From: Saccoglossus kowalevskii
Lineage: Eukaryota > Hemichordata > Enteropneusta > Harrimaniidae
Direction of reading: 5' to 3'
Assembly (NCBI RefSeq): GCF_000003605.2
Contig: NW_003108605.1
Location: 79,793 to 118,756 of the forward strand
Length of the DNA: 38,964 bases
How positions within the stretch are numbered: the first letter of the stretch is position 1; each line of letters opens with the position of its first letter. This document shows positions 12,701 through 37,500 of this stretch, piece by piece. The position numbers and the translations under genes are program-made. The notes below the pieces were generated by a model. The model saw only the letters and a list, made by a program, of their open reading frames with translations. It searched no databases and had not been told where the DNA came from.

Positions 12701-15700
12701 AATAAACAATCTAATTTTAATATTAATATTTGCAATTTCTGAAGCCAAGGTACTTTTATTAGCTCCGCTGTCGATTTTGTCAAGCGGAGCTTATCATATG
12801 AGTGATTGTCTGGCGTCGTCGTCTCTGTCAATGTTTTACTTTTTCGACTTCTTCTTGAAAACTACAAGCCTGAATGCTTTGATACTTGGTGTATATGTAC
12901 CTTGGGTGGACCTGTCTTAGATTTGTTCATTTCATGATGTTATCTTCAATTCTCTAATTTTGGTGAATATTTTTGGCATTTTTGGTAAAAAGTGATATTT
13001 TCGACTTCTTGTTAAAAACTGTAAGTCCGATTGCTTTGATATTACATAGATAGATACTGCATGTAGACCTTTCTCAGATTTGTTCATTTCATGATGATAT
13101 TTTTGATTCTCTAATTTTAATGAATATTTTTGTCATTTTTGGTAAAAAGTAAAATTTTTGAATTCTTGTTGAAAACAGCAAGTCTGATTGCTTTGATACT
13201 ATACATATTGTTCATTTTCTAATGATATCTTCAGTTCTTTAATTGAAATGTGCATTGCTGACAGCGGCGCTATCTCAGCCAACAGGCTGTTTATTTGGTT
13301 GTTGCCTCACCATTATTTCTTGCCAGATTTCTCACTATAAACCTGTATTCACTGTTTACAAAAGCGGCACATGCTCTGGTGAGACGCGATAAGAGACTAT
13401 TGGTTTAATTTTAAAAATTGATGCGAGTTGTTGTTACAGGAATGCTGATTGATGGATCCAGCTTCTTGGCGCACCCAATCAAATCGTTCAATTTAACTGA
13501 GGTCAAATATAGCTTTTCCTAACATGGGTTTGTAGAGATCGCCATGGATGGTCAACTTCAGTGAAACCATTTGAATTGTACGGTGTAATATTTGTAGTGG
13601 CAAAATGTTGTTTCAATAAACAAAATTGTATTTTCACATTGAATGACACATGTTAAAGAAAAGCAATTTTTCAGGGTTTTTTTTTGTTAAATTAATCAAC
13701 TGTAAAGATAGTTTGCATTTACAAAATATTTCTGATTTGTTTTTTCCTCAGAGAATAATTCCTGTGCTTAAATCATCTGAACTGCTGTTTGAAACCTCTG
13801 AATCTACATATACCTCATCTATTGAAGACAGTGAAGATGTTGACTGTGTTGCTGCTGCTATACAACAAAGCAAGCTAGAATCAAACAGAAAAAGGAATGC
13901 TGAGTCTGATGAAGAATACAGTTCTAATTTGAGTGAAAATGAATTCCATACTGATGAAAATAATATTGTTATTGACAAACCAACTTGTAAAAGGAAAAAG
14001 AAGTGTGAAGGGATTGAAGACAATCTAGATGCAGACCATGATTGTCTTGATAATTGTCAAGAAAAAGAAAAACCATGTTCAAAGGTAATGGATGATGATG
14101 ATGTGTGTGATGACAAAAGTGAGATAATGGAACTCAACTTTGCGGAAGACAAAAATAGCCCCGTTTGCCAGGAAGAAACTATGGAAAATGGCTGTAGTAG
14201 TGATGATGATGCACTTGATGATAATGAAAAAGAAAATAATACAAATGAACTAATAACAGATTTTGCTGATGTGGAAAATATAAAAGATAGTGAAAATGAT
14301 ACAAATAGAAGTGAAATAGCATGTAATGATGAAGATAAAAGGACACATAGCGATAAGATTTGTGTAAAAGATGAACAGTTGCCTGTTGAAAAGAAATTTC
14401 AAACAGAAAATGAAGTAAAGAAAGAATTGTCAGTGGAACATAAACAGTGTCAAGAAGAAAATATTTCTTTAGATACATTAAAAAAAGAATCGGTTCACAT
14501 CAAGAAGCCAATTAATGTAGTGAAACAAGAAAAAGTGAGCACTGACCAAAAAACAAAAATTGAACTTGCTGATGAAATGACCATTAAAGATACATTAGAC
14601 AATGATGAAAGTGAGGAAAAGGTTAATATATTGAAGAGGGAATTAGTGAATGGGAAGGAATGTCCTGAGAGAACTGATAATGAAGATTGCTCTAATGCTC
14701 AAGAAGTGACTGACAAAACCACTGAAATAAACCACACAAAAGAAGATGAAAAAGTAGAAGAAAAAGAAGAGGAGATGATAGAAGTCCTGCCGGAAAAGGG
14801 TAAATTTGAGCTTGTCTGTGATAGCCTGGATTCACTAAGAGAACTCATTCTGAAGTTTACAGAGCCTGAACCTGAGCCTGAACCACCATATGCTGGTAGA
14901 GGTCGGAAGAAAAAGGTATTTACTAATGTTTAAATGAGTTACATGTAGGTTTGATGTTTCTTGACATTTTATTCACAATCCATTAGGATAATCACCTTAA
15001 TTGGCAAGGGAAGACATCAATGTTTATGACATGTTTCATTATACTAGTAGTTTTCCCGCTAAGCCCAAGCATATTCAAAAAACCTTGTTCAAATAATGGT
15101 TTTAATTATCAAAGTGTCTGATCGTATGCCAATTTGTTTGCCTCTGAAATTTATGCCAGTGCATGCACTACTAATAGAGCAAATATGGTTTGCATACTAT
15201 TCTGTATTGTCTGTATTTGAGCCTAATCTGTTGCTGAGCAGATGNNNNNNNNNNNNNNNNNNNNNNNNNNNNNNNNNNNNNNNNNNNNNNNNNNNNNNNN
15301 NNNNNNNNNNNNNNNNNNNNNNNNNNNNNNNNNNNNNNNNNNNNNNNNNNNNNNNNNNNNNNNNNNNNNNNNNNNNNNNNNNNNNNNNNNNNNNNNNNNN
15401 NNNNNNNNNNNNNNNNNNNNNNNNNNNNNNNNNNNNNNNNNNNNNNNNNNNNNNNNNNNNNNNNNNNNNNNNNNNNNNNNNNNNNNNNNNNNNNNNNNNN
15501 NNNNNNNNNNNNNNNNNNNNNNNNNNNNNNNNNNNNNNNNNNNNNNNNNNNNNNNNNNNNNNNNNNNNNNNNNNNNNNNNNNNNNNNNNNNNNNNNNNNN
15601 NNNNNNNNNNNNNNNNNNNNNNNNNNNNNNNNNNNNNNNNNNNNNNNNNNNNNNNNNNNNNNNNNNNNNNNNNNNNNNNNNNNNNNNNNNNNNNNNNNNN

Positions 15701-18700
15701 NNNNNNNNNNNNNNNNNNNNNNNNNNNNNNNNNNNNNNNNNNNNNNNNNNNNNNNNNNNNNNNNNNNNNNNNNNNNNNNNNNNNNNNNTAATATTATCTA
15801 TATTGCCAGATTGAAAAACCACCTCCTCGTAAAAGATGTGTTACTGAACTTCAAGGTGTTATGCAACCTGTTAGCCGAATTAGAACCATGGGAATCAAGA
15901 ATACAAAAGGCAGTTTCAAGAAATAGAATCAAAATGAAGAAAGAATGGGATACTTACAGGGAACAACCCCCTTCACCTGATGTGAGTATGGTAGGATTTG
16001 ACACATCCATGAATATGTGCATATATGGGGACACCATTTACTTGTGTTTATTCTTTATTCACTTTAAGAGTAAAAGTGTCTTCATTTTACTGAAAACTGT
16101 ACTCAGCTCAAGAAAGCAAAACATTCAAACTTCACTCGTACATCATGCAATACATTTATACATATGCACCTCAATCCATTTCACAATTTGATTCAAGATG
16201 GTTGATTGACGTTTATTTTTGTGCTTAAAATTCATTAAAATCGATCATTTCTGTCGAAATGAAACTGGATCTTGGTGTCATGTATGAACAGATTTTGTTC
16301 AAACTGTACAAACATTATAAGACAGTGATGCACATTAAGTTGTGTTTTAGATTGGATTCAAGATTTTGTTTTAATGGTGCAGTTCTGGTTCATATCTCCA
16401 ACATGTTCTTGCTGTTCATATTCAGAATATATACTTATATTTCTTAAACTTGCATGGACTATGTAATTCAATTAATTGTTCATTTGTGTTCCTTATTTAG
16501 TAATGCTGTATATTCTGTGTGTTTTATGCCATTAGGAAGTAGAGGATGTTTGGGCCAGTGAAGAGTCGAGTAGCGACAATAGTAGTGATGACAGCAGTTC
16601 AGATGATACTTCAGATTCAAGTGATGCTCCTAATGAACAACAGCAGAATGCAGATGTTTTGGCTCACAGGGCTGAACCAAAACTAGGTGATGTGGTTTTA
16701 GTTGAAGGTATGGTCAATGGTGCATTGGATGGAAGACCAACAACTAGAAGACAGGCAAAATTAAATACTGAGAGAGCAAAGAGAAGAGCCAGGGCGGCCA
16801 TTCTAAGGGAGAAGAAGAAAGAAGAAAAAGCACGAGCCAATGTCAATTTTGTTAATACAATAACTTTACCAATTGGTGGTGTGACCACAACTTTTACTCT
16901 TCCAACAACGTCTCTGGGTACTTCAGTTAGTTTGTCAACTTTATATGCATTACTTCAGTCTCAGCCACTTATTAAAGTGAGTACAAAAACTGGTAGCTCC
17001 ACTGCTACTTTGCTTACTACTGTTTCCAAGGGAGGCAATGTACCATTTATCCACCCACCAAAGACTGTCACTTCAGCGCCAAGTAGTACTATAACAACAT
17101 CTGTGAATCAACCAAATTTGACAACCTCGCATGGTTTTCTTGGGGATGAATCAGCAATAAACTTCCCAAGTATAGGTGGTAAAGTTGGCTTACTAGCGAG
17201 CAGCACCTCTACCCAGGCAACTACCACAAGTAATATTGTATATACATCATTAGCTTCCAGCTCTGCTATCCAGGCAACTACTTCAGCTACTGTTGGCATG
17301 TCTCCATCAGTAGTATTCAGCACTACTACCCAGGCATCAACTGTTGTCACTCAAGTCAATAACAGTAGTGTTATGTCAACAATGCCACGCTTATCACCGA
17401 CTAAACACATTATTACAACAGGTGGCAATACTGCAACATTAACTTTGAATGCACCTACTGTTGCCCAACAGTTACAACAACAACGTTTACAAAAGCAGCT
17501 CAAGCAGCAGCAACAACAACACCCTCAAACATCCACAAGTAAAGATGATAATGCAGATGCCTTAGCCGATCCAAATCAAGTTCCATCAATTCAGAATCAA
17601 AGTCAAAATAATAACAAACCAAAAGTAAGCTCTGTTGTGTCTCCGGCACCAACACAGAAAACACTGCCATCTTCTGCTGCTCCTCCGAAAGTTCAGTACA
17701 ACTTAGTTTTAGATTCTAAATCGGGTAAAACAAAACTTAGTCAAGATCAATTAATGCAACTATTGCAATCGCCTCAACTGACTTCGCAACAGAAACAGCT
17801 TGTACATCTGCAGCTATTACAGTCTCAGCTACAAAATCAGCAACTGATTTTGCAGCAACAGAAAATGAAAGTGCAGCAGAAGAGTCAGCAGGTTATTCAG
17901 CAACAGCAGCATGCCTCTCCCATACTTAAACAAAAGCCATCAACTGCCAAAATACCACAACTAGGGAGAGAACAATTATTACAGATGTTACAAAAACAAC
18001 AGAGTGCCAAGCTTCAGTTACCAAGCCAAACAAGTGCCTCATCTACTGCTGTAACTTGCTCAACAAGTCCAAAGGTTTTGCTATCCCCTCAATCAAGAGT
18101 TCAGCCAGGTACAACAGTAAGTGGTCTTCAATCAACATCAATGGCAACTACAACCTCAGTGCAGAGTTCACAACTTGTCTCAGTTTGGCCAAGTTTGAAA
18201 TCACCTACAAGTGTTATTACACCTAAGCCTAAACCACAACTCGTCCAGAACATTAAAGTACCGCAAAGTACTTCACAGAAAGGAGTTACTACGCAAGGTA
18301 TTAATCCACAGTATGTTTTGCTTGATGGAAAGTTGATTCCATATACTGCGTTTCAAGAACATGGAATCAAGTTAAAAGGTGTACAAACTCAGCCTGTTAT
18401 CAAACAATTGCAAAATGCTACTTTGCAAACACCACAAACAGGTCAGCATGTAATTACTACAAGCAGAGTAGCGACTGGGGCATCAAAGTTAATTTCCTCA
18501 ATGCCTGTGCCTAAGACTTTAGCAAGCCCATTGCCTGTTGGTCACATAAAATCACCGGTACAGTCTACAGCAACTCCTCAACAATTGCAGCTTTCACAAC
18601 CAACTAAGTTAGTGCAAAATGTTTTGACATCACAAGTTGTACCACAGCAACCTCGATTGACACCAATGTCCCCACCACAGCAACTTGAAGGTACTGTGCC

Positions 18701-20774
18701 ATCATCAAGTACAAAAGTAACAGCAGTTGTGGGAAATAAGCTTGTGACAATTACAGGGATTGATCCTAAATTTTTAGCTCAGTGTGGAGGCAAATTAGTA
18801 CTCCCGGGTAATCTCCTCTTGACTGGAGCAAAAACTTCACAACCTCAAAAAATTATTTTAACACCTCAGACTTCAGATAGCTCTCAAATGAGCCAAAGTG
18901 TCCAGAGCCAACAGTCCAACTTGCTCATGGTGTCCTCTACATCCACCTATCCAGCAGTATCTCCCATTCAGACAATCCAGAATCCACAACAGACAATCCT
19001 TTCGGTTCAAAGACAACAAGCACCTATACTTGCTCCAGGTACATCCACCCAGCCTACTTGGAGTCTTAAACCAGTTATACAACAACCAACTACACTTACA
19101 ACAGGGTCATCATCTTCTTTTCCAATCTCCAACATTCAGCAGATGCAAACCTTGCCACAGACTCTTCTTCAAGTCAACACTGGAAATATCTCTAACCAAA
19201 AAGCCGCTGTAATTACATCAAAGACGGATCCTGTCTTATCACTGCATAGTGCTCAGCATACTGTATTACAAGGAAGTGGTGCAAATGTTCGTCAACCATC
19301 AAACTTAATACTAACATCAGCAACTTCCACCCATCCAACAGCTCGGATACAGACAATACAGAGGCCACATCAAACACTTCTTGAAGTAAATCCAGGTAAC
19401 CTTCCCAATCAGCAACCAACCTTACTTACAACAGCAACAGCAACAGTTGCAGCTGCAAGCTCCCATCCCAATCTTCAGGTGCTGCAGGCTCCAAAACAAA
19501 CAACACTACAATTAAGTAGAGGAAATGTGCCAATTCAGCATTTAATTACACCAACAACGTTCACTCATCCAACAGCTGTAAGAACTACTGCTATTGCCAC
19601 TGAAAATTCAACTCTTATTGGAGGAAGAACTGTGATTCCTGTGCAAGCTGCAAACTCTTCTCAAGTACTTTTCCAAACCAATCCGCCATTATCACCATCT
19701 GTATCAAATTCATTCTGTCAACCCATTGTCAGTAATGCACCTGTGCATCAGTTAATTGCCTCTTCGCCAGCGTCGAACAAACCTTTCTTCATATTGAATG
19801 CAGCAGGTTCTGCTGCTTCCCAAGCTGGTCAGCCAAATGTCAAGTTGCTGCAGACTTCACCAGTACAATCAACTCCAACTATGCAACAGATTCACCTGTC
19901 AAGTTCCACACTAGCAGGGACAAGTAACATTGCAGAGACAACTCTGCAACAAATCCAACAACTTGTGACTACAGCTTCAATTAAGCAGCCTGTGTTTGCA
20001 ACTTTACCTTCAGCGGCTACAGCTGTTCTTCAGCAACCAAATGTCAATCAGACCACTACAGTGAATTTAAACTCGCTGCCACTGGTGGTCCAGAAACAAT
20101 TAATTGAAAAGATTCAAAAACGTGCATTATTGATGAACATCCCGGAAAAGAATGCGAGTTCAACTGCAAATACAATTGTGAAACCGATAAATGCTACTCC
20201 TACTGGAATTGCAGTGCCTACAGTACAGCAAACTTCTACTTTAATGCTTCATTCCATTCCAACCTTGGCTTCTGTAGAGCCTCAAAAAATAGCAGTGCCT
20301 GCCACAGCACCCAGTAGTGTCTGTAGTTCTAAAATGGGGAGTAAAACAATGAGTATACCACAAACATCGCCACTCAAAATTCCTCAAAATAGTGCACCTA
20401 AAACACTGTCAATACCAATCCCTGTTCCACCGTCACCAACTAAGCAAAGTCTGTACATTGTTAGTGCACACAATCAATCTGTTGGGAATGTTAGAGTTAA
20501 TCCTGTAAAACCACCACAACCTACATCGCTTCATGTGTCAATCCCTGGAGGAAACCAAGGTTTTGTTATTCAGAATTCTGCTGATACGTTGAACTTTGCT
20601 GCAAAGTCAACTCCAATCATATCAAGTCCTGGATCATCAAGAACCACAAACCCTGCTGCAAATATTGTTTTATGCAGTCCAGTGAAATCCCACATTATCC
20701 CTAGTATATCAGCATCAGCTAATTCTGACTGCAATAGCAGTACTGTTATGAATGGACTTACTGACAAAAAATAA
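5684..20774 (+). CDS. BRD10: BRD10 / KIAA2026 orthologue, bromodomain chromatin protein, 12 exons
   Basis: Coding exons: 5684-6026, 6593-6761, 8592-8671, 8934-9163, 9388-9548, 10327-10435, 10606-10743, 11534-11764, 12546-12665, 13752-14915, 15810-15981 and 16536-20774. Phases join throughout, except that exon 11 is one base too long. With that base discounted the protein is about 2384 residues; from memory the human KIAA2026 protein is of similar size (about 2100). Order of parts: bromodomain (about 61-170), basic/Glu-rich helix (about 230-260), DDT-like helices (about 275-328), WHIM-like segments ending in IHFPHFCGADVRIYKQ (about 365-460), Lys-rich linkers, acidic exon (528-915), ELEPWE-containing segment (916-972), and a Ser/Thr/Gln/Pro-rich tail (973-2384). 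The first in-frame ATG with a fair context (gatATGg) is at 5684; the reading frame upstream has no ATG. The role is inferred: nuclear chromatin binding through acetyl-lysine. The orthology rests on recognition of the domain order and conserved phrases. Confidence 0.88.
6762..8591 (+). other. BRD10 intron 2
   Basis: A 1.8 kb AT-rich intron with a GTGAGT donor and a tatttctag acceptor. Apart from short homopolymer T runs I see no exon, repeat family or RNA gene in it. Confidence 0.75.
9388..11764 (+). other. BRD10: BRD10 exons 5-8: DDT/WHIM-like region
   Basis: Exon 5 (IPQIGHFLYICQSSLNIGEV, then FYELERGFLMP and FTSLLSTPFQR) has the spacing of hydrophobic residues and the L-E-x-G/A-L helix of a DDT domain. 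Exon 7 contains YHELTFYQRVWIMKSMVDII, which resembles the WHIM1 helix (E-R-v-x-x-L-k-x-l-c-d). Exon 8 contains LGHDSEGSSYIHFPHF, resembling the WHIM2/WSD motif LGxDrxxxxYwxF. The family comparison is from memory, so the domain names are a hypothesis. The region is strongly conserved in feel and lacks low-complexity sequence. Confidence 0.6.
11765..12545 (+). other. BRD10 intron 8, GC-AG type
   Basis: Exon 8 ends at AAG followed by GCAAGT, not GT. Exon 9 starts after tatcaaag at 12546 in the same phase (0), giving GRKRK|TEIPDKKELKIF. The flanking AAG|GCAAGT is the strong consensus seen at genuine GC-AG introns. No nearby GT restores an open frame with the right phase. Confidence 0.8.
12761..13290. 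repeat. Dispersed repeat with internal 157-base tandem units, in BRD10 intron 9
   Basis: It opens with an inverted pair, AGCTCCGCT (12761-12769) and AGCGGAGCT (12783-12791). It then has about 2.7 diverged copies of a unit beginning ttcgacttctt...aaaact and including gctttgatact and atttgttcatttcatgatg. Copies begin near 12841, 12997 and 13154. There is no open frame. The outer limits are uncertain. Confidence 0.75.
13752..14915 (+). other. BRD10: BRD10 exon 10: acidic, low-complexity segment
   Basis: A 388-residue exon, open in phase 0 from acceptor tttcctcag to donor AAG|GTATTT. It starts RIIPVLKSSELLFETSES, turns highly rich in Asp, Glu, Lys and Asn, and ends with a conserved-looking helix (FELVCDSLDSLRELILKF), an EPEPEPEP run and a basic GRGRKKK. 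The middle is probably disordered. The two ordered ends are the more likely interaction sites. Confidence 0.85.
15245..15788. other. Assembly gap (544 N)
   Basis: A run of N between BRD10 exons 10 and 11. It most likely covers intron sequence. An additional small exon inside it cannot be excluded. All open frames reported through it are meaningless. Confidence 0.98.
15810..15981 (+). CDS. BRD10: BRD10 exon 11, with an apparent one-base frameshift
   Basis: The acceptor tattgccag (ending 15809) and donor GAT|GTGAGT (15982) define 172 bases. Phase 0 is required on both sides, so 171 would fit. From the left, the phase-0 frame reads IEKPPPRKRCVTELQ and later hits a stop. The frame that reaches the donor reads LLAELEPWESRIQKAVSRNR and ends REQPPSPD. 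The two readable pieces meet at about 15855-15857, in caaggtgtta. This looks like one surplus base in the assembly close to the gap, though a real allelic break or an alternative acceptor at ttcaag (15855) is possible. Confidence 0.7.
16536..20774 (+). CDS. BRD10: BRD10 exon 12: Ser/Thr/Gln-rich C-terminal exon
   Basis: A single exon encoding 1412 residues. It opens with EVEDVWASEESSSDNSSDD (acidic and phosphorylatable) after acceptor ccattag. Next come basic helices (RRQAKLNTERAKRRARAAIL), then a long tail rich in Ser, Thr, Gln, Pro and Val with glutamine tracts around 17470-17520 and 17810-17920. It ends NGLTDKK at a TAA. Such tails are usually disordered and often transactivating or condensate-forming (inference). 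Segments with VLLDGKLIPYTAFQEHGIKL, ITGIDPKFLAQCGG and LNSLPLVVQKQLIEKIQKRA look ordered and are candidate conserved motifs. Confidence 0.9.
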   Translation, partial: EVEDVWASEESSSDNSSDDSSSDDTSDSSDAPNEQQQNADVLAHRAEPKLGDVVLVEGMVNGALDGRPTTRRQAKLNTERAKRRARAAILREKKKEEKARANVNFVNTITLPIGGVTTTFTLPTTSLGTSVSLSTLYALLQSQPLIKVSTKTGSSTATLLTTVSKGGNVPFIHPPKTVTSAPSSTITTSVNQPNLTTSHGFLGDESAINFPSIGGKVGLLASSTSTQATTTSNIVYTSLASSSAIQATTSATVGMSPSVVFSTTTQASTVVTQVNNSSVMSTMPRLSPTKHIITTGGNTATLTLNAPTVAQQLQQQRLQKQLKQQQQQHPQTSTSKDDNADALADPNQVPSIQNQSQNNNKPKVSSVVSPAPTQKTLPSSAAPPKVQYNLVLDSKSGKTKLSQDQLMQLLQSPQLTSQQKQLVHLQLLQSQLQNQQLILQQQKMKVQQKSQQVIQQQQHASPILKQKPSTAKIPQLGREQLLQMLQKQQSAKLQLPSQTSASSTAVTCSTSPKVLLSPQSRVQPGTTVSGLQSTSMATTTSVQSSQLVSVWPSLKSPTSVITPKPKPQLVQNIKVPQSTSQKGVTTQGINPQYVLLDGKLIPYTAFQEHGIKLKGVQTQPVIKQLQNATLQTPQTGQHVITTSRVATGASKLISSMPVPKTLASPLPVGHIKSPVQSTATPQQLQLSQPTKLVQNVLTSQVVPQQPRLTPMSPPQQLEGTVPSSSTKVTAVVGNKLVTITGIDPKFLAQCGGKLVLPGNLLLTGAKTSQPQKIILTPQTSDSSQMSQSVQSQQSNLLMVSSTSTYPAVSPIQTIQNPQQTILSVQRQQAPILAPGTSTQPTWSLKPVIQQPTTLTTGSSSSFPISNIQQMQTLPQTLLQVNTGNISNQKAAVITSKTDPVLSLHSAQHTVLQGSGANVRQPSNLILTSATSTHPTARIQTIQRPHQTLLEVNPGNLPNQQPTLLTTATATVAAASSHPNLQVLQAPKQTTLQLSRGNVPIQHLITPTTFTHPTAVRTTAIATENSTLIGGRTVIPVQAANSSQVLFQTNPPLSPSVSNSFCQPIVSNAPVHQLIASSPASNKPFFILNAAGSAASQAGQPNVKLLQTSPVQSTPTMQQIHLSSSTLAGTSNIAETTLQQIQQLVTTASIKQPVFATLPSAATAVLQQPNVNQTTTVNLNSLPLVVQKQLIEKIQKRALLMNIPEKNASSTANTIVKPINATPTGIAVPTVQQTSTLMLHSIPTLASVEPQKIAVPATAPSSVCSSKMGSKTMSIPQTSPLKIPQNSAPKTLSIPIPVPPSPTKQSLYIVSAHNQSVGNVRVNPVKPPQPTSLHVSIPGGNQGFVIQNSADTLNFAAKSTPIISSPGSSRTTNPAANIVLCSPVKSHIIPSISASANSDCNSSTVMNGLTDKK

Positions 20775-27083: not shown

Positions 27084-30000
27084 TTAATCTTCTTCTTCTT
27101 TCACTTTTCTTTTCCTAACTTTCTTACACATGTCATCATCTTCTATACCATTCTCAGGTATAAGTGTATCATTGTAATTATCATTCAAATCATCATGAGC
27201 ACCTTGATCGTTGTCAACAACCAGCTTCTCTTCTTTACAAATTTTTTTTTCATCTACTATTTCTTCATTTTCATCCTCCATATCATTTGCATAAATGTCC
27301 TCATCAACATCACTATCATCTTCTACTTCTTCAACATAAACAACCTTCCTCTTAGGGGGACCTCTTGATCTTCTAGATCTAGGAACATCCGCTTTGTACT
27401 TTACAGGGACATTTCTTTTCCTAGCATGAGTAGTCTTCTTGGGCACTCTTTTCACAACCACCTCTTCTTCGTATTCGTCCTCCTCATCATCGTAGTATTC
27501 ATCAACGTAGTCCCTGTCCATATCATGATCATCATAATAAGGGTCATCAACTTTCTGTGGGCGTCTGCGTTTTGGCCTGACTGACGCTTTGGGGGATTCA
27601 TTAGTTGCCATCTGCTCAGTGACTTGACTCATGGCTACACCCATTTTATTCATGTATTCCATCATTTTCTCCATAGCCTTCTCTGTTTCTTCAAGACGCT
27701 TCTGGAGTGTCACAATGTCATCACCTGGAAATAAACATAAAAAAACTGATTTATTAGATTATTGCCTTATGAAATCACCATTGTTGTAACATCAGTGACC
27801 TACATGTCATGTATTAACACACTGCAATAACCTATACAATAGATTTTCAGAGGCATAATCCGCTTAGCCATCAAAATACCAAAATTATCTTTTTGAAAAT
27901 ATGTACATTATCATAGGTATAATGAATAAATTAAAGATCAACTCATTATGAGATCTTTCTTGGTTGCTACCTCAACAGGAGATCGCTTATACAGTTTTCT
28001 AAATCATAATATTACGGAATATATTATTATCATCATAAACTTCCACATTATGAAACACACCCAAGAAATTAGTCAAGAAAACCATCAGAGATGGCAGCTT
28101 GGGAAGTAAGTAAACTTGTAAGTAAGCTTGGTGAGTGAAAAACGGTGTGCAAAATTCACCATTTCAATCAAGAAATAATTAGATACTGGTAACTACTAAA
28201 CCACTAACACTACACCACCCTTTAAGTGGCAATAGCTGTGATTTTGAACATATTTTTGTTTAAATATACGTTAACTACATAAAGATGACCAAATCTTAAC
28301 AAAATATTATTTTAAACACAATTGCATGGACAAAGTCACCCTACACAAGGCTTATGTCACATTAAAAGAACTGTGAAAACTAAAGGTTGAGTAGTTGCCA
28401 TTGGTCATGTGATGTGAACCGTAGAAAATCATGACACACAACGCATACTTATGGAAATTGGCACTTAAAATCACTAGTGAGAGGCTGACTGAGATAAATA
28501 GCCTCTCAAGATAGTGACATATTTGACATTTCGTCCAGGGCCCAGGTAAGTTGTCATCCTGTACCATAATCCCTGACGTTCGCTCAACAAAACTAGGTCT
28601 CAATAAATGATTCCCTCTGGAGACCCAGATGCAACCACTCTGTAACATATGCAAATTAACATGCAATTCACATCTTGCTTCCACCAGAACTGTATGACTA
28701 TCAAATACACACTAAATTTCAAAATGTTTTAAATTTTGTTTATTTGACTCAGTATCAGTGTTCACCACTCTGAATCACAAATCAATTTTAAATGTGTTTT
28801 ACCCCTGTTACTACATTACAGGTCTCAAGTCCTTAGTAATGCTGAGCCCTGCATGCTGAAAACACCACTGTCTTATCATTACCTTCTTCTTCCACATATT
28901 GAGGTAAATTTTTGTCAGCTCTTTCCCTGTACTTGTCTGGCTTCAATTCTTTTTGTAACGTTCTCTGAAGTTCTTCTTCATAGACTCGTCTACTGCGCGA
29001 GTCCATCGCTGCAGCATAATTATCAGTGGGAGTAGTATTAATACAAGGAGCACCGCGGATAGGTTGACCAGTGATTGGATCTTTCTGACCTTGATCTTTG
29101 AAGAATATCTGCAAAATTCAAAGCAAAAGGTTGAAGAGCCCATTACACGTATATTGTGATATGAAGAACATGCAAGCAATGTAGTACCTATAATAAAATC
29201 TAAAACTGCAAGAAAATCAAGGTGCATACATGGGTGAAGCAGAAGTATATATCAAGAGACTACAATAATCAAAGTCAAATTCACTACACGCAATTAACAA
29301 TGAACTTTAGTATTCTGATTATCAATTTCAAAGAAATATTGTATTTGAAAGTCACCAAGAGTGTCAGCTGGAGCATTCAAGGCAATGTTGCTAAGCCCTA
29401 GGCATTAGTTGCCTGAAAACCATTCAAGTGGCAGGCCAAACAGATATGGTTGCAGTGCATAATAACAGAAGACATATATTATAAGTATGTTTGCCCACTG
29501 TTTGCATGTTTAAAGTGTGCTTGCATTCTGAGCACACTTGAAGCATGCTGCAGGGTGCGACAATAATCTTAACTCACCCGATACATAATGTATGCAAAAT
29601 AAACAATGATACCGACAGCATAGACTGGCAGTACAGAGCTCATCATGCCTCGTGATTTTCCAGCCCCTTCTTTTTGAGCCTGTGGTGCCATTTGAGCTGC
29701 TACTCGATCACCTCCCATTGGTCCTGAAGTGAAGTGACAAATCGCATAAAAAAGATGAGAAATATAAAATCAAAAAAAAACTTACAAACTCACTTTATAG
29801 AGAATGGTAGCTTTCATGAACTACAACGGCTTTCTCTCCAGGCAGTTTTGCTATGATTTAAAACATTGATACAGATATGCATTTTATATAGCAGCATTAT
29901 GCAAATTACCGACATACCTGCACAATTACCTGGTGAGAACACAGTAGTTGTCAATCCAATTAATATACAAATACTTGCTAATCAACACAATAATTGTATG

Positions 30001-31401: not shown

Positions 31402-31767
31402 AAATAATTTATCTTTCTAAACTATTTTATTTTTCTGCAGTCTGTAGTTATGTTAATTTAAGGTTTGTTTCTGTAAAATTAAACTAGCTACGCTGCATAA
31501 CAAACAGAATATTTATTGTATGCCAAAAAATTGAAGGTCATCTAAATATCGGACCATCTGACAAATGTCAAAAATATAATAATAATTAATCAACTTACTT
31601 TGTGTATCATCCCTTTCAGTGCCAGTCCCACTACTTTCGCCTCCCCCAAACCACTGTTTGTACATGTTACTGAATATAGAGGGGTACAGAATGGCATTGC
31701 AAACTATCATAACAGTGAAGACAAAACAAGCAGTGTGATGAAACGCCATTTTGGATTTTCGGATCAT
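27084..31767 (-). CDS. RIC3: RIC3, ER chaperone of nicotinic acetylcholine receptors, 5 exons
   Basis: Minus-strand exons: 31767-31599, 30184-30134, 29723-29578, 29108-28883 and 27724-27084, ending in TAA (27086-27084). All have GT-AG borders and phases 1, 1, 0, 1. The probable start is the second ATG at 31749 (AAAATGGCG, strong context), giving MAFHHTACFVFT and 404 residues. The upstream ATG (31767) would add MIRKSK. Parts: N-terminal hydrophobic segment (about 5-26), His/Pro/Gly-rich lumenal loop including YPPHMRHHGPRSPP, second membrane segment SSVLPVYAVGIIVYFAYIMY (97-116), then IFFKDQGQ, a conserved cytosolic helix (RRVYEEELQRTLQKEL), a coiled coil (LQKRLEETEKAMEKMMEYM, about 195-230), and a tail alternating basic and acidic. 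RIC3 proteins in vertebrates and nematodes act in the ER to help fold and assemble nAChR and 5-HT3 receptors. Human RIC3 has 369 residues. Confidence 0.9.
30971..31015 (-). pseudogene. Fragment duplicating part of RIC3 exon 5, inside RIC3 intron 1
   Basis: The first 27 bases (30971-30997) are identical to exon 5 bases 27339-27365. The next nine differ at two positions. On the minus strand both read RSRGPPKRKVV in the same frame, with RRRSRG in the copy against RRSRG in the exon. The flanks are unrelated. No intact exon surrounds it, although an AG precedes the block on the minus strand (cctaacag). Confidence 0.7.
31082..31278. mobile_element. MITE, family of the tactgt-gaatacttta type, copy 2
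   Basis: The same structure as 3009-3207: the left end has aatactttattttagctgga and ttttcgctgaaa, and the interior has ggctttttgggt and ttgatgagtt. The right end has gcgaaaataaagtattctac followed by agta. It is about 197 bases long, in RIC3 intron 1, and more diverged at its left end than copy 1. Confidence 0.85.
31305..31405. repeat. (AAAT)n microsatellite
   Basis: An AAAC/AAAT lead-in, then an almost pure AAAT array, directly beyond the right end of the MITE (31278). Such A-rich arrays often grow next to inserted elements. Confidence 0.9.
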
Positions 31768-32244
31768 AGTACTTTTAGTTTGAGCCTGTATGTTCGAGCA
31801 TTATCGGTAAGTTAAAGAAATGATGCATAATCGTTATTTTTATATTATATATTTTGTAATGGATAATAACCAATATATTATGATTTTTTTAATGTTTTAA
31901 TCCTAAAATTACAAATATTATTAGTAGTACGAATCCATATACTACAATTACTACTTGCGCGCTGTGTCACGTGATCATTGAAATTATATAAACAAAAAAA
32001 ATTGCGTTAAAAATTCTTATGCGAAGAATTTAGGATTTTATTGGTTGCCTTACAATGCTATAACTACAAAAAATATTAAATTTACCAATTTATTGTCATC
32101 TGTTCAAACACAATGTATTTAACTGTCACGGTCTTGCGGGAGAGCAGCTTGTCCGACGAGATTTTGCGAGATTTACCAATAATTTAAGCTTATGAAACCC
32201 CGTAGCCGACCCATGTTCCATCCTTTTCCAACAAGAAGCCCAAG
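31768..32244. promoter_or_regulatory. Divergent promoter between RIC3 and RPS11
   Basis: The two start codons are under 500 bases apart and point outward. The region contains a palindromic E-box, TCACGTGA, at 31967-31974 (GTCACGTGAT, close to the CLEAR/USF type). On the RPS11 side it contains a CpG-bearing segment and an oligopyrimidine start (separate entry). No TATA box is clear. Confidence 0.6.
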
Positions 32245-32252
32245 ATGGCGGA
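32222..32252 (+). promoter_or_regulatory. RPS11 5' TOP start and YY1-like site over the ATG
   Basis: CCTTTTCC at 32222-32229 lies 15 bases before the ATG, as expected for the 5' terminal oligopyrimidine tract of ribosomal protein mRNAs, which puts translation under mTOR/LARP1 control in animals. The start codon sits in CAAGATGGCGG, which matches the YY1 consensus often found at ribosomal protein starts. The exact transcription start is inferred. Confidence 0.65.
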
Positions 32253-35200
32253 TCAGGTACGATTGTCACATGGACATTATTACCACGACATTCTTTATTT
32301 AATGGCAATGTTATAATGAATAGATGTATCATTAAGAATGGTTGTTGTAGTCTCTAAGAGTGACAAGCGTCTAATATTTCCAACAACCAATTTTACTAAC
32401 GAATTCCTAATTCCTGTGTTTAAGTCAAACATCAAAACACGCGTGATACTCCATCCCATTGACTGCAGCCGATTCTTGAGATCGTGGCTCGTGTTATGCA
32501 TGTGGAAAATCCATCCATAATGAATGCTACGGTAGAGGAGTCCTAAAATAGTCGTCTATGCGTTTTCATTGCCAATAACTTCTAATGATTATAAATAAAT
32601 TCATAATGCACTTGTTTATTGACAATGAAATGCTGCCCGGGAGGGAAGTCTATTCCACTATTGGTTATGATTCCAAAAGGTGTACTAGTATTCTAATTTT
32701 TTACATTGCAATGCCTCTACCTGAAGGAAAGAGTCCCTTATAGCTCCCCACCCTGAATCCTAATCCTTGCGCTCCAGCCTCAATGTGTTTCAATATGCCC
32801 CTCCAAATAAATAAATAACTTACTTTGAGTTGATATATATAATTGAAATGGAGGAGGGGCAAGGATAGATTTAGGAACTCTTGCCGACCTGCAAAACTGT
32901 TGAACTTTCTCTCGCCCTTGGCACTATGATCAAACTGTTTGAAATGACAGTTACTGGTATTAACAAGACGATGTTTTCAACACTATACAGGGGCAACTAC
33001 CACGACAAAAACAACAACAAAAAGATTTTGCTGCTGAGCAGGTATTCTAAATCCAGGACAGGGGTCTTTGGATTTTAAGCACGCGTACATAATCATTTAT
33101 CTGAGGTGAAGGGTGAAAGGACTCAACTAAAAATTAAAAAATACATTCCACATAAGTATCATTGAAGTCTCCACAAACAATGTACCAGTAAAAACATGTT
33201 TTAGTGTGAGGTACAAAGTTATGAATCAATATTCCCATTCATATTTTCATTTTGTGTTGTATGGTATAATACAAAAAAAAACAAGTTGCAAATATTCTGC
33301 TGGGTACATAATAAGGTTATCAGAAAATCACCTTCAAAGAAAATAATGCATATCACAATCAATTCAGTGTCCATATTGTCTGCATTTCATTCAATGCAGT
33401 TCTTATTTCTGTCAATGACTGACAGAACTGCAAATGCTCGTATCTAATTTTTGTTCTGTCTTCAGAAATGTCACATCCGTCTTGCGTGCAGAAATGTTTG
33501 AGAAAATTATTTATTACCACTTATTATATATTTGAGTCAAATAAATTTTATTTCATAGATCAAATGGAATACAAAATTCCCTGCAATGTGTTAAGGGAAT
33601 CACTTGTATTATCTTACCATTATAGCAGATGCACTTTCTTCATAATATTGAAAATGAGGGTCAGTAATTACAGCTTCCAAAGCTCAACTGTATTTGCCAC
33701 GTTTCTGTTTTCAGCTAGTGCATTATTTGTTGCCACCTCAGAAGTTGATACTACTTGTACATGCTTTAACAGTCCTAAAATCATAAATGTATTGGAAGCT
33801 GGTTAAAATTGTCTTTATTTTGTCATGTTATTTGTACTTGTGTGTTGGTGTTACACTGGTGAAACATAATGTGTACATTAATAATTTGAAGCTAGTTGTC
33901 CTCGTTGATTTTATTTCATACACAAACTAAATCAGTGTTGGTTTTAAAATTTTAAAGGTAATTCCATACATGAATATTCCACTTCATAAATCTTGAGACA
34001 CAACACTGAATGTAAAATTGACTATGCCGAATGTACAGAGAAAGCAGTTCTTTACAACTAAAGTGACCAAATTGACATTTGAGATGCATTTTAAAAACGG
34101 TAAAATATAGATTCATTGAATTGCTGGTAAATTTACATTAAGCATAGAAAATTGTACATTCAAAAAAAGTGGAACTTTGAAATCAGTCTTGCTTTTTCAC
34201 CCTTCATTTGCTACCCATTTTGATGTTTTATTACAGACTGAGAGGGCCTTCCAGAAACAGCCCACGGTATTTCAAAACAAAAAGAGAGTTCTTGGTTCTG
34301 GTAAGAAGAAAAATTTACGGCTTGTGAGAAACATTGGTTTAGGATTTAAAACTCCTCGCGAGGTGAGTAAAGCAAAATTAATTGCCAATATCGACTAAAC
34401 TACATATGGCCTCTATTTTAACTGTACATGATGTTTATCACGATGGTCTTCTTAAATTACTTATGCTGAAACTGCCTTTTGGCAATTGCTGATACAGTTC
34501 GATAAATTTAATGCGTTAAGTATTGTTTGACTACATGTAAATGCAAATCCCTAAACTTCTATCTCGTCTTTCAGGCCAGTCAAGGCACTTACATTGATAA
34601 GAAATGTCCATTCACTGGTAATGTTCATATTCGTGGAAGGATTCTTAATGGTGTCGTCACCAAAATGAAGATGCAAAGAACAATAGTGGTTCGTCGGGAT
34701 TATCTTCATTATATCAAAAAATACAACAGATTTGAGAAGAGACACAAAAATATTTCAGTTCATCTTTCTCCATGTTTTAGGTAAGTATATCATTCCACAT
34801 ATACAATTTGTTGGGTTTTTTTATGTTGCACAAATGTTAGTCTTTGGTGTAAGGCTATGTATTAGCTATGTTTTGATATGAATTAGTTCCAATAGGCTAA
34901 ACTTATAGATTTAGGAACATACTCCTGTAAAATATTTGATGTAATGTATAGTATCCTGCAAGTAGTTGGGGCATTTCTGTATAAAACATATTCTGACTTT
35001 TGTCTCAGATAACATATATGCACTGTAAATGATGTTTTCACGATGGTCTTCTTATGCCTCTCATTGGCACTGCTGAGAACTGCCTTTTGGCAATTGCTGA
35101 TACAGTTGCATTTATTTTCCCAGCTGAATTGAGGACGATGCAATCAACTTTGTTCACATATGTCACTATATAGGGGCAGCCTGGCTTGAAACTTAAGACA

Positions 35201-35584
35201 ATTCAGGAAACCTGTTTTTCCTTACAAGTCGAGGGGAAAAAATACAAAATTTTCACAACAAAACAATTCGTTGGGGTTCCAGAGAGAATTCATGAAAAAA
35301 ACATCTTGTACATTTTATGCCAGAGAATTAATATTCCTTGATGAATTCCCTTTTTTCATCCAATTTCGTAAGTAGCAGCATAAACACATGGTTGCAATAT
35401 ATAAGGATGCCTCTGTTGCACAATTTTATTTATTTACCTTATGTTTACTTGCAGAGATTTGACTGTTGGTGATGTTGTGACCATTGGAGAATGCAGACCA
35501 CTTAGTAAAACTGTGCGTTTTAATGTGCTCAAAGTCTCTAAGGCCCCAGGGAGCATGAAGAAAAAGGCTTTCCAAAAGTTTTAA
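32245..35584 (+). CDS. RPS11: RPS11, small ribosomal subunit protein uS17, 4 exons
   Basis: Coding exons: 32245-32256 (MADQ only), 34237-34362, 34575-34780 and 35455-35584, with TAA at 35582-35584. They give 157 residues against 158 in human. Characteristic stretches are [85 protein letters not shown] and [18 protein letters not shown]. The protein binds 18S rRNA in the 40S subunit. The 12-base first coding exon followed by a 2 kb intron is a common layout in ribosomal protein genes. A polyadenylation signal AATAAA lies at 35627-35632. Introns 2 and 3 each contain a snoRNA, so splicing of this mRNA would also supply rRNA-modification guides. Confidence 0.97.
32257..34236 (+). other. RPS11 intron 1
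   Basis: A 2 kb AT-rich intron from CAG|GTACGA to ttattacag. No box C/D snoRNA like those of introns 2 and 3 is visible. The only local structure I note is a pair of mutually exclusive hairpins at 33380-33432, for example TGCAGTTCT (33395-33403) against AGAACTGCA (33424-33432). Confidence 0.65.
34421..34498 (+). ncRNA. SNORD35: SNORD35-like box C/D snoRNA, copy in RPS11 intron 2
   Basis: Terminal stem ACTGTA (34421-34426) with TACAGT (34493-34498). Box C is ATGATGT (34428-34434) and box D is CTGA (34489-34492). The guide TCACGATGGTCT (34438-34449) can pair with the conserved LSU rRNA segment AGACCGUCGUGA, with one G-U pair. A degenerate D' box, CTTA (34451-34454), puts the fifth upstream base opposite the C methylated in human 28S (C4506), the known SNORD35 target. 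Human SNORD35B also lies in an RPS11 intron. The second half forms a small hairpin, TGCC-TTTT-GGCA. Confidence 0.88.
35022..35106 (+). ncRNA. SNORD35: SNORD35-like box C/D snoRNA, copy in RPS11 intron 3
   Basis: A paralogue of the copy in intron 2. The terminal stem ACTGTA/TACAGT (35022-35027, 35101-35106) is extended by flanking TGC/GCA pairing. Box C is ATGATGT (35029-35035) and box D is CTGA (35097-35100). The guide TCACGATGGTCT and D' CTTA (35038-35054) are the same. The guide-side 16 bases and the last 30 bases match the other copy exactly. Only the middle segment differs in length and sequence, as expected when boxes and guide are under selection. Confidence 0.88.
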
Positions 35585-37500
35585 GAATACCATTTTGCTG
35601 GGACATTTGTTATGAACATCATGTAAAATAAATCTATCAAGTGGCTCAGTATTAATTGTCTTGTTTTTTTTTGCTTCAACTTCACTGCCTACTGGTACCG
35701 GTACTACTGTAGTAGCTATATTACTAAATGCATGCATTCATTCATGGAATGTAACAGACTACAAATTAGTGCAAAGGTGGTACATGTATATTACTTGTAT
35801 GTACACAATTAAGTATCAGGGCAGCCAATTTGCTAACTTGGGGGGGGGGGCTAGATTTGAAAGACAACTTTTTAGTCAAAACCCAAGCAGTTGACCAATT
35901 CGCCAGTGAGTTTGCAAATTGGCTGCCCCAGTATTTGAGACTTGCTGTAAGCTCATGAATCCTATGTAGCTTGTGGAATGAGTGAAAAGAATCTTAGAAG
36001 ACTTCTAGCTGTGAAGTGTACATATCAACAGGTTTCAGTACTATCTGGTCTTGGTTAGAATATTCTATACTCATAAACATCTTAGTCCCCGCAAGATTTA
36101 TGGCTGGATAGAATGGCAAGTGGAACAAAAATGCTTGCTTACTCGCTGCATGGCACACAGAGTAAAGGCTTTTTATTACCTTGCCCGTACCATCAAAGAT
36201 GGAAGGGAAAGGTATATTAAGGGGAAAATTTTGTCCGTCGTTGTCGTTAATAATTGTTATTGTGTGCATAACTTTACTAATTCTATTCCAAACTTTATCA
36301 AACTTGGTCACCTTATTCATCAGTATAAAGTCTTCCCTGAGTCTGAACAACAAATGTCCTGTATGAAAATATCATGCAAAAATTGAGAAAATCTGATAAA
36401 ATATTTTGACTGTTTCTACTTGACTGATCACTGGTGATACACATCAAAGGTCACTGATCTCAGTGGAAATATGCATTGTTGAATGTGTTCAATGAAGCAA
36501 ATGATTTATCTTGTAATAATATCCTTGGTAATGTATCCCAGAATCCCATACTGGGTTTCAAAACCAACTCGTGGAGAGATTGCACAGTCTGATACACATT
36601 TGCAAACCTATCAGTAAAATCTTTACAGACAACAAGATGTCAGAAAATCAATATAAGCACTGCTATGAACTGGGTGCCAAACTTTGATCAAGATCTGAAG
36701 CTAATAGAAAATATGTTTAGTTCAAAGTTATCAAATCAAAAACAATACATAAAAAGCAAAACATTTCATGCACATTTTAAAAAGAAAATTGTTCTAAAAT
36801 ATATGTATTCTGTATTTGACAAACAGTTCATTCGACAAATGAACACTCGCAGGAATATGTTTCAGTATTAGAACAGAATGATAGAGTTTTCATAATACTA
36901 GTTTAAAAACGCACTTCAAAGATTGCAGTGTTTGAAGATGTAGATTCTCAGGAGGCACAGTACTGTTGACTTCTCACTCCACTGGACACCAACTAACTAT
37001 TTAAGTTGATTTGCATATAAAGCAGAGCTTGCAACATGATAGCTATTCATAAAGGGTGTTTTTTTTTACTTTTCATATAATACAGTAGTCACACAATGAG
37101 GCAGTTCATATTTGTCTCAGTGAATCATTAATTTTTGACAGACACCTGTACAAAATACTTGGACTAAAGCAGCACTTTTTTTTTTTCAATGAGACATTTG
37201 TTTTTATACTAAAATATCTGAATTACTTTGAAGAAAGCTGGAAATATGTCCCTTAAAATAATTAAACAAATAAGGCACCAATGATTTTGTAAGATATTTA
37301 CATCTTTTAAGGACATTCGGTAGACTGATTCCCCACTGTTGGTTCAACCCCAAAACTTGTTTGTATTCAAAATTAATTATGACAATGCATATTTATATTG
37401 AAACAAACTATGATAAAGGGAATTATATTATATAACAAAGGGCAAGGTCACCAGAGTTCAACTATGTTTATTATTGTTGTAGGAATTGATTATGTATTGT
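35585..37500. other. RPS11 3' end and downstream spacer
   Basis: Holds the RPS11 AATAAA (35627-35632) and a hAT-like MITE (35817-35929). Beyond that it is AT-rich sequence in which overlapping open frames on both strands (35994-36386) show no recognisable protein and lack supporting splice structure. No gene is supported. Confidence 0.6.
35817..35929. mobile_element. Short hAT-like MITE with 15-base terminal repeats
   Basis: GGGCAGCCAATTTGC (35819-35833) and its exact reverse complement (35914-35928) bound 113 bases. The left end begins CAGGG, typical of hAT elements. The direct repeat AGTAT flanks both sides (35812-35816 and 35930-35934) as a possible target duplication, which is shorter than the usual 8 bases. 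A run of ten G lies inside. Confidence 0.75.

Follow-up and report, generated by a model that had tools for sequence, protein, structure and literature searches.

The window, that is, the whole 38,964-nucleotide stretch of Saccoglossus kowalevskii DNA analyzed here, carries on its + strand a four-exon gene model for RPS11 (uS17), and introns 2 and 3 of this model each host a SNORD35 copy. The coding part of exon 1 (MADQ) presumably lies at 32245-32256, where its sequence is followed by GT; exon 2 (34237-34362) was assigned by uS17 homology, with a translation that ends in ...TPRE, and is followed by exon 3 (34575-34780) and exon 4 (35455-35584, up to the stop codon). Intron 2 (34363-34574, 212 nt) contains copy 1 and intron 3 (34781-35454, 674 nt) contains copy 2, both with GT-AG boundaries. 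In the encoded protein, intron 3 falls at CF-R/D (...SPCF-R/D). The intron numbers hold if exon 1 is ATGGCGGATCAG followed by GT at 32245, as its letters would indicate. The host encodes a uS17 with 90% identity to that of Ptychodera flava, the highest value among the 120 best of 5745 matches, and the 8 echinoderm proteins in that set of 120 were 80-85% identical.

Several other features were observed in the window. The open reading frame at 16536-20774 (+) represents a large exon from a gene similar to bromodomain-containing protein 10. It has two relatives at E <= 1e-20 (7983 candidates scored), from the hemichordates P. flava and Glandiceps talaboti, which align to 44-55% of the query with 40-41% identity. 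The match for this gene and that for RPS11 are both on contigs of size 45,584,913, which suggests that the linkage of the two genes is retained in Ptychodera. On the - strand, the open reading frames 28833-29117 and 31513-31800 presumably resemble the acetylcholine receptor chaperone RIC3, and 1478-1777 presumably resembles a JmjC protein such as JMJD7. A run of N occupies 15245-15788 and may be an assembly gap. Just downstream of RPS11 is an inverted repeat (35820-35927) with arms at 35820-35838 and 35909-35927 that are complementary at 18 of 19 positions; it gave a weak miRNA match (20.4 bits vs. a threshold of 135) and is perhaps a small palindromic mobile element.

Copy 1 spans 34421-34498 (+), with an Rfam RF00211 match at 34423-34501. 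The 5' strand of its terminal stem, ACTGTA (34421-34426), pairs with TACAGT at 34493-34498, and letters and Rfam alignment together place box C (ATGATGT) at 34428-34434, box C' (TGCTGA) at 34464-34469, and box D (CTGA) at 34489-34492. Between these elements are the antisense guide (34438-34449), a degenerate box D' read as CTTA (34451-34454, three of four letters as in CTGA and placed by the +5 rule), and an internal hairpin, TGCC-TTTT-GGCA (34473-34484). Copy 2 spans 35022-35106 (+; RF00211 match 35024-35109) and is built from the same parts: a terminal stem whose 5' strand (35022-35027) pairs with TACAGT at 35101-35106, box C ATGATGT (35029-35035) and box D CTGA (35097-35100), both supported by letters and Rfam alignment, the guide (35036-35049), a degenerate D' CTTA (35051-35054), box C' TGCTGA (35071-35076), and the internal hairpin TGCC-TTTT-GGCA (35081-35092), present in the centroid fold. 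Between D' and C', copy 2 has a further hairpin, TGCC-TCTCATT-GGCA (35055-35069), which the Rfam consensus also shows; copy 1 is without it and has a shorter, unrelated spacer there. The 6-bp terminal stem, box C ATGATGT, and box D CTGA that define a box C/D snoRNA occur in both copies, and the complete units with terminal stem, boxes, guide, and degenerate D' that the original prediction had described were all located.

In order to establish family identity, both units were scored with the SNORD35 covariance model, a check that had been proposed beforehand. Copy 2 scored 49.4 bits and copy 1 scored 41.1 bits, both above the curated gathering score of RF00211 (36 bits). The proposal of two SNORD35-like snoRNAs in consecutive RPS11 introns was thus borne out by the covariance scores and the gene model. 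A search of the animal's own 572-Mb assembly, in which scoring covered 58 of the 6485 initial candidates, reported no SNORD35 match besides these two. Searching 33500-36000 for other Rfam families at a lax threshold yielded three matches, each far under its gathering score. Stand-alone folding energies were unexceptional relative to shuffled sequences (z of -0.24 and -0.97), which is neither for nor against a box C/D snoRNA.

The predicted target was sought in the animal's own 28S rRNA. Contig C2002 opens with the 28S 3' end (positions 1-534; Rfam LSU_rRNA_eukarya, 340.7 bits) and contains AGACCGTCGTGAGA, to which the guide of copy 2 pairs over 14 bp (2 G-U). For the guide of copy 1 the pairing is 12 bp long (1 G-U), to AGACCGTCGTGA; the next-best guide pairings on the same 10-kb stretch of C2002 reached 9 bp. 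If D' is taken as CTTA, the base five positions upstream of it is paired to the initial C of the 28S GACC, and on the basis of E. coli and yeast numbering we take this C to be the U35/snR73 site (human C4506). Because D' is degenerate, the CTTA reading was guided by the resemblance to CTGA and by where the known site lies. For Arabidopsis, human, and yeast, the tables of PMC3511168 list the U35-type guide (clan CL00056) together with its site. The stretch upstream of box D (AACTGCCTTTTGGCAATTG), considered as a second guide, found no convincing partner within the 10 kb of C2002 that include the 28S 3' end: the best pairings listed, six for each strand, span 9-11 bp and include 3-5 G-U, and those on the rRNA strand fell at positions of at least 846, beyond the end of the rRNA at 534.

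Short 28S rRNA fragments that include the SNORD35 target were also observed on many contigs, and 25 of the 40 matches besides the rRNA contig were examined. Their 5' ends are variable and their 3' ends cluster 31-43 nt downstream of the G in GACCGTCG, with 15 of the 25 ending 35-37 nt past that G; a common T-to-A variant (GGGATTAG) is carried by 6 of the 25. These fragments look like retroposed pieces or a 28S-derived element.

The reading preferred here, at a probability of roughly 0.93, is that both copies are functional-looking SNORD35 snoRNAs that would be processed from RPS11 introns, would methylate 28S rRNA, and were duplicated within the gene. Box C/D snoRNAs are stable small RNAs bound by fibrillarin, NOP56, NOP58, and 15.5K. 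Copies 1 and 2 would be spliced out together with RPS11 introns 2 and 3, the released copies would be trimmed down to their terminal stems, and the trimmed copies would be bound by the standard C/D proteins, with the guide upstream of D' directing fibrillarin to a single 28S cytosine, the human C4506 equivalent, for putative methylation. The pair would have arisen when one snoRNA was copied into the adjacent RPS11 intron. Vertebrate C/D snoRNAs prefer a distance of approximately 70-80 nt from the 3' splice site; copy 1 lies at 75 nt and copy 2 at 347 nt, and the release of copy 2 may be less efficient or follow another route. No shortening structure beyond chance was found in the intron 3 stretch after copy 2 (z 0.02). 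The distance of copy 2, together with the degenerate D' (CTTA) and the hairpin missing from copy 1, counts against the preferred reading.

Comparison of the two copies yielded insight into their origin. Global alignment gave 71 identical columns out of 87, and the exact blocks common to both are ACTGTA, ATGATGTTT, TCACGATGGTCTTCTTA, TGCTGA, and a 30-nt 3' block. The 3' block agrees with the original prediction, which had also given the shared guide block (TCACGATGGTCTTCTTA) as 16 bases; its actual length is 17 nt. Exact matches between introns 2 and 3 extend to 30 nt at most, and 100 dinucleotide shuffles gave a maximum of 13 and a mean of 9.1. The flanks of the snoRNAs (58-75 nt) aligned no better than shuffled sequence, the observed score being reached in 290 of 300 shuffles upstream and in 163 of 300 downstream, and ungapped extension past the 3' end covered 10 nt with 6 of 10 letters alike. 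Since the flanks are unalike, either the snoRNA alone was copied or enough time has passed since the duplication for the surrounding sequence to diverge. With shared blocks far beyond chance and unrelated flanks, the intra-gene snoRNA duplication that had been proposed is the best reading. Copy 2, in intron 3, would be the older form, as suggested by its higher score and its family D'-C' hairpin, from which a direction of duplication from intron 3 to intron 2 may be drawn.

The boxes and guide had further been proposed to be under selection; they may be, and gene conversion could also preserve the 30-nt block. Identity of the guide and 3' block through gene conversion or a fairly recent duplication, not through selection on each block, is an unlikely though still appreciable alternative: a 30-nt block without any change beside a diverged middle is what it would produce, and against a recent event stands the flanking intron, which has no similarity beyond shuffles. 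The dissimilar flanks indicate that the duplication was not very recent, unless the snoRNA alone was copied. That only one copy is active, copy 1 being a decaying duplicate, appears improbable. The lower score of copy 1 (41.1 vs. 49.4 bits) and its lack of the D'-C' hairpin would fit decay, but its stem, boxes C, C', and D, and guide are intact, and only 75 nt separate its 3' end from the 3' splice site.

The proposed link of SNORD35 to RPS11 in vertebrates is documented for human, with SNORD35B in RPS11 and SNORD35A in RPL13A (PMC6466398; PMC8393311), and for chicken, with U35 in RPS11 intron 4 and a 13-nt 5' antisense element (PMC2653536). The vertebrate hosting part of the suggestion that the host relationship is ancient thus stands; a single origin is probable only, with re-hosting as the competing explanation. 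Relative to human SNORD35B and chicken GGgCD67 (RF00211, CL00056), the copies described here have the same boxes, D' guide, 28S site, and host gene, and perhaps the same intron. They differ from vertebrate SNORD35 in that two copies occupy one host and copy 1 is without the D'-C' hairpin; for chicken GGgCD67, the table of PMC2653536 gives a single isoform. According to that study, nearly all snoRNA paralogues of chicken stem from intragenic duplication, mostly into adjacent introns and with the guide kept. The Saccoglossus pair is like those cis-duplicated vertebrate paralogues in its adjacent introns, retained guide, and otherwise diverged sequence (PMC2653536), and differs in belonging to another lineage, the hemichordates.

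Among the titles listed in literature searches on invertebrate, amphioxus, hemichordate, and sea urchin hosts, none places SNORD35 in RPS11 beyond the vertebrates. A predicted fish protein that contains a repeated segment (P0002) has its break at ...SPCFR, where intron 3 is located here, a weak hint that this intron also exists in vertebrates. Retention of SNORD35 in the same RPS11 intron since the hemichordate-vertebrate ancestor, with the intron 2 copy as a later duplicate, is advanced tentatively, at a little below even odds. If true, it would mean that a snoRNA has stayed with its host for more than half a billion years, as opposed to a view of constant reshuffling. Convergence, in which SNORD35 entered RPS11 twice, in vertebrates and here, is considered rather unlikely. 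snoRNAs do change hosts, as human SNORD35A in RPL13A illustrates (PMC6466398; PMC8393311), and PMC3511168 reports that none of 22 snoRNA-bearing ancient introns had homologous snoRNAs across eukaryotic supergroups; however, with so many ribosomal protein genes available as hosts, two independent moves into the same one are less likely, and the fish protein hints that the intron may be the same one. With the human RPL13A protein as query, only a fragment with an internal stop, perhaps a pseudogene, was observed, on contig C4227, and Rfam at the gathering threshold gave no match in the 15.5 kb around it.

The family, its target, its host gene, and the mode of duplication are all known already, and a duplicated SNORD35 leaves the understanding of box C/D snoRNAs unchanged. 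Mildly new is the extension of the SNORD35-RPS11 link to a hemichordate, possibly in the same intron. The locus provides a hemichordate data point for how long one snoRNA stays with one host gene, as well as two natural guide-RNA variants, with and without the D'-C' hairpin, in one host transcript.
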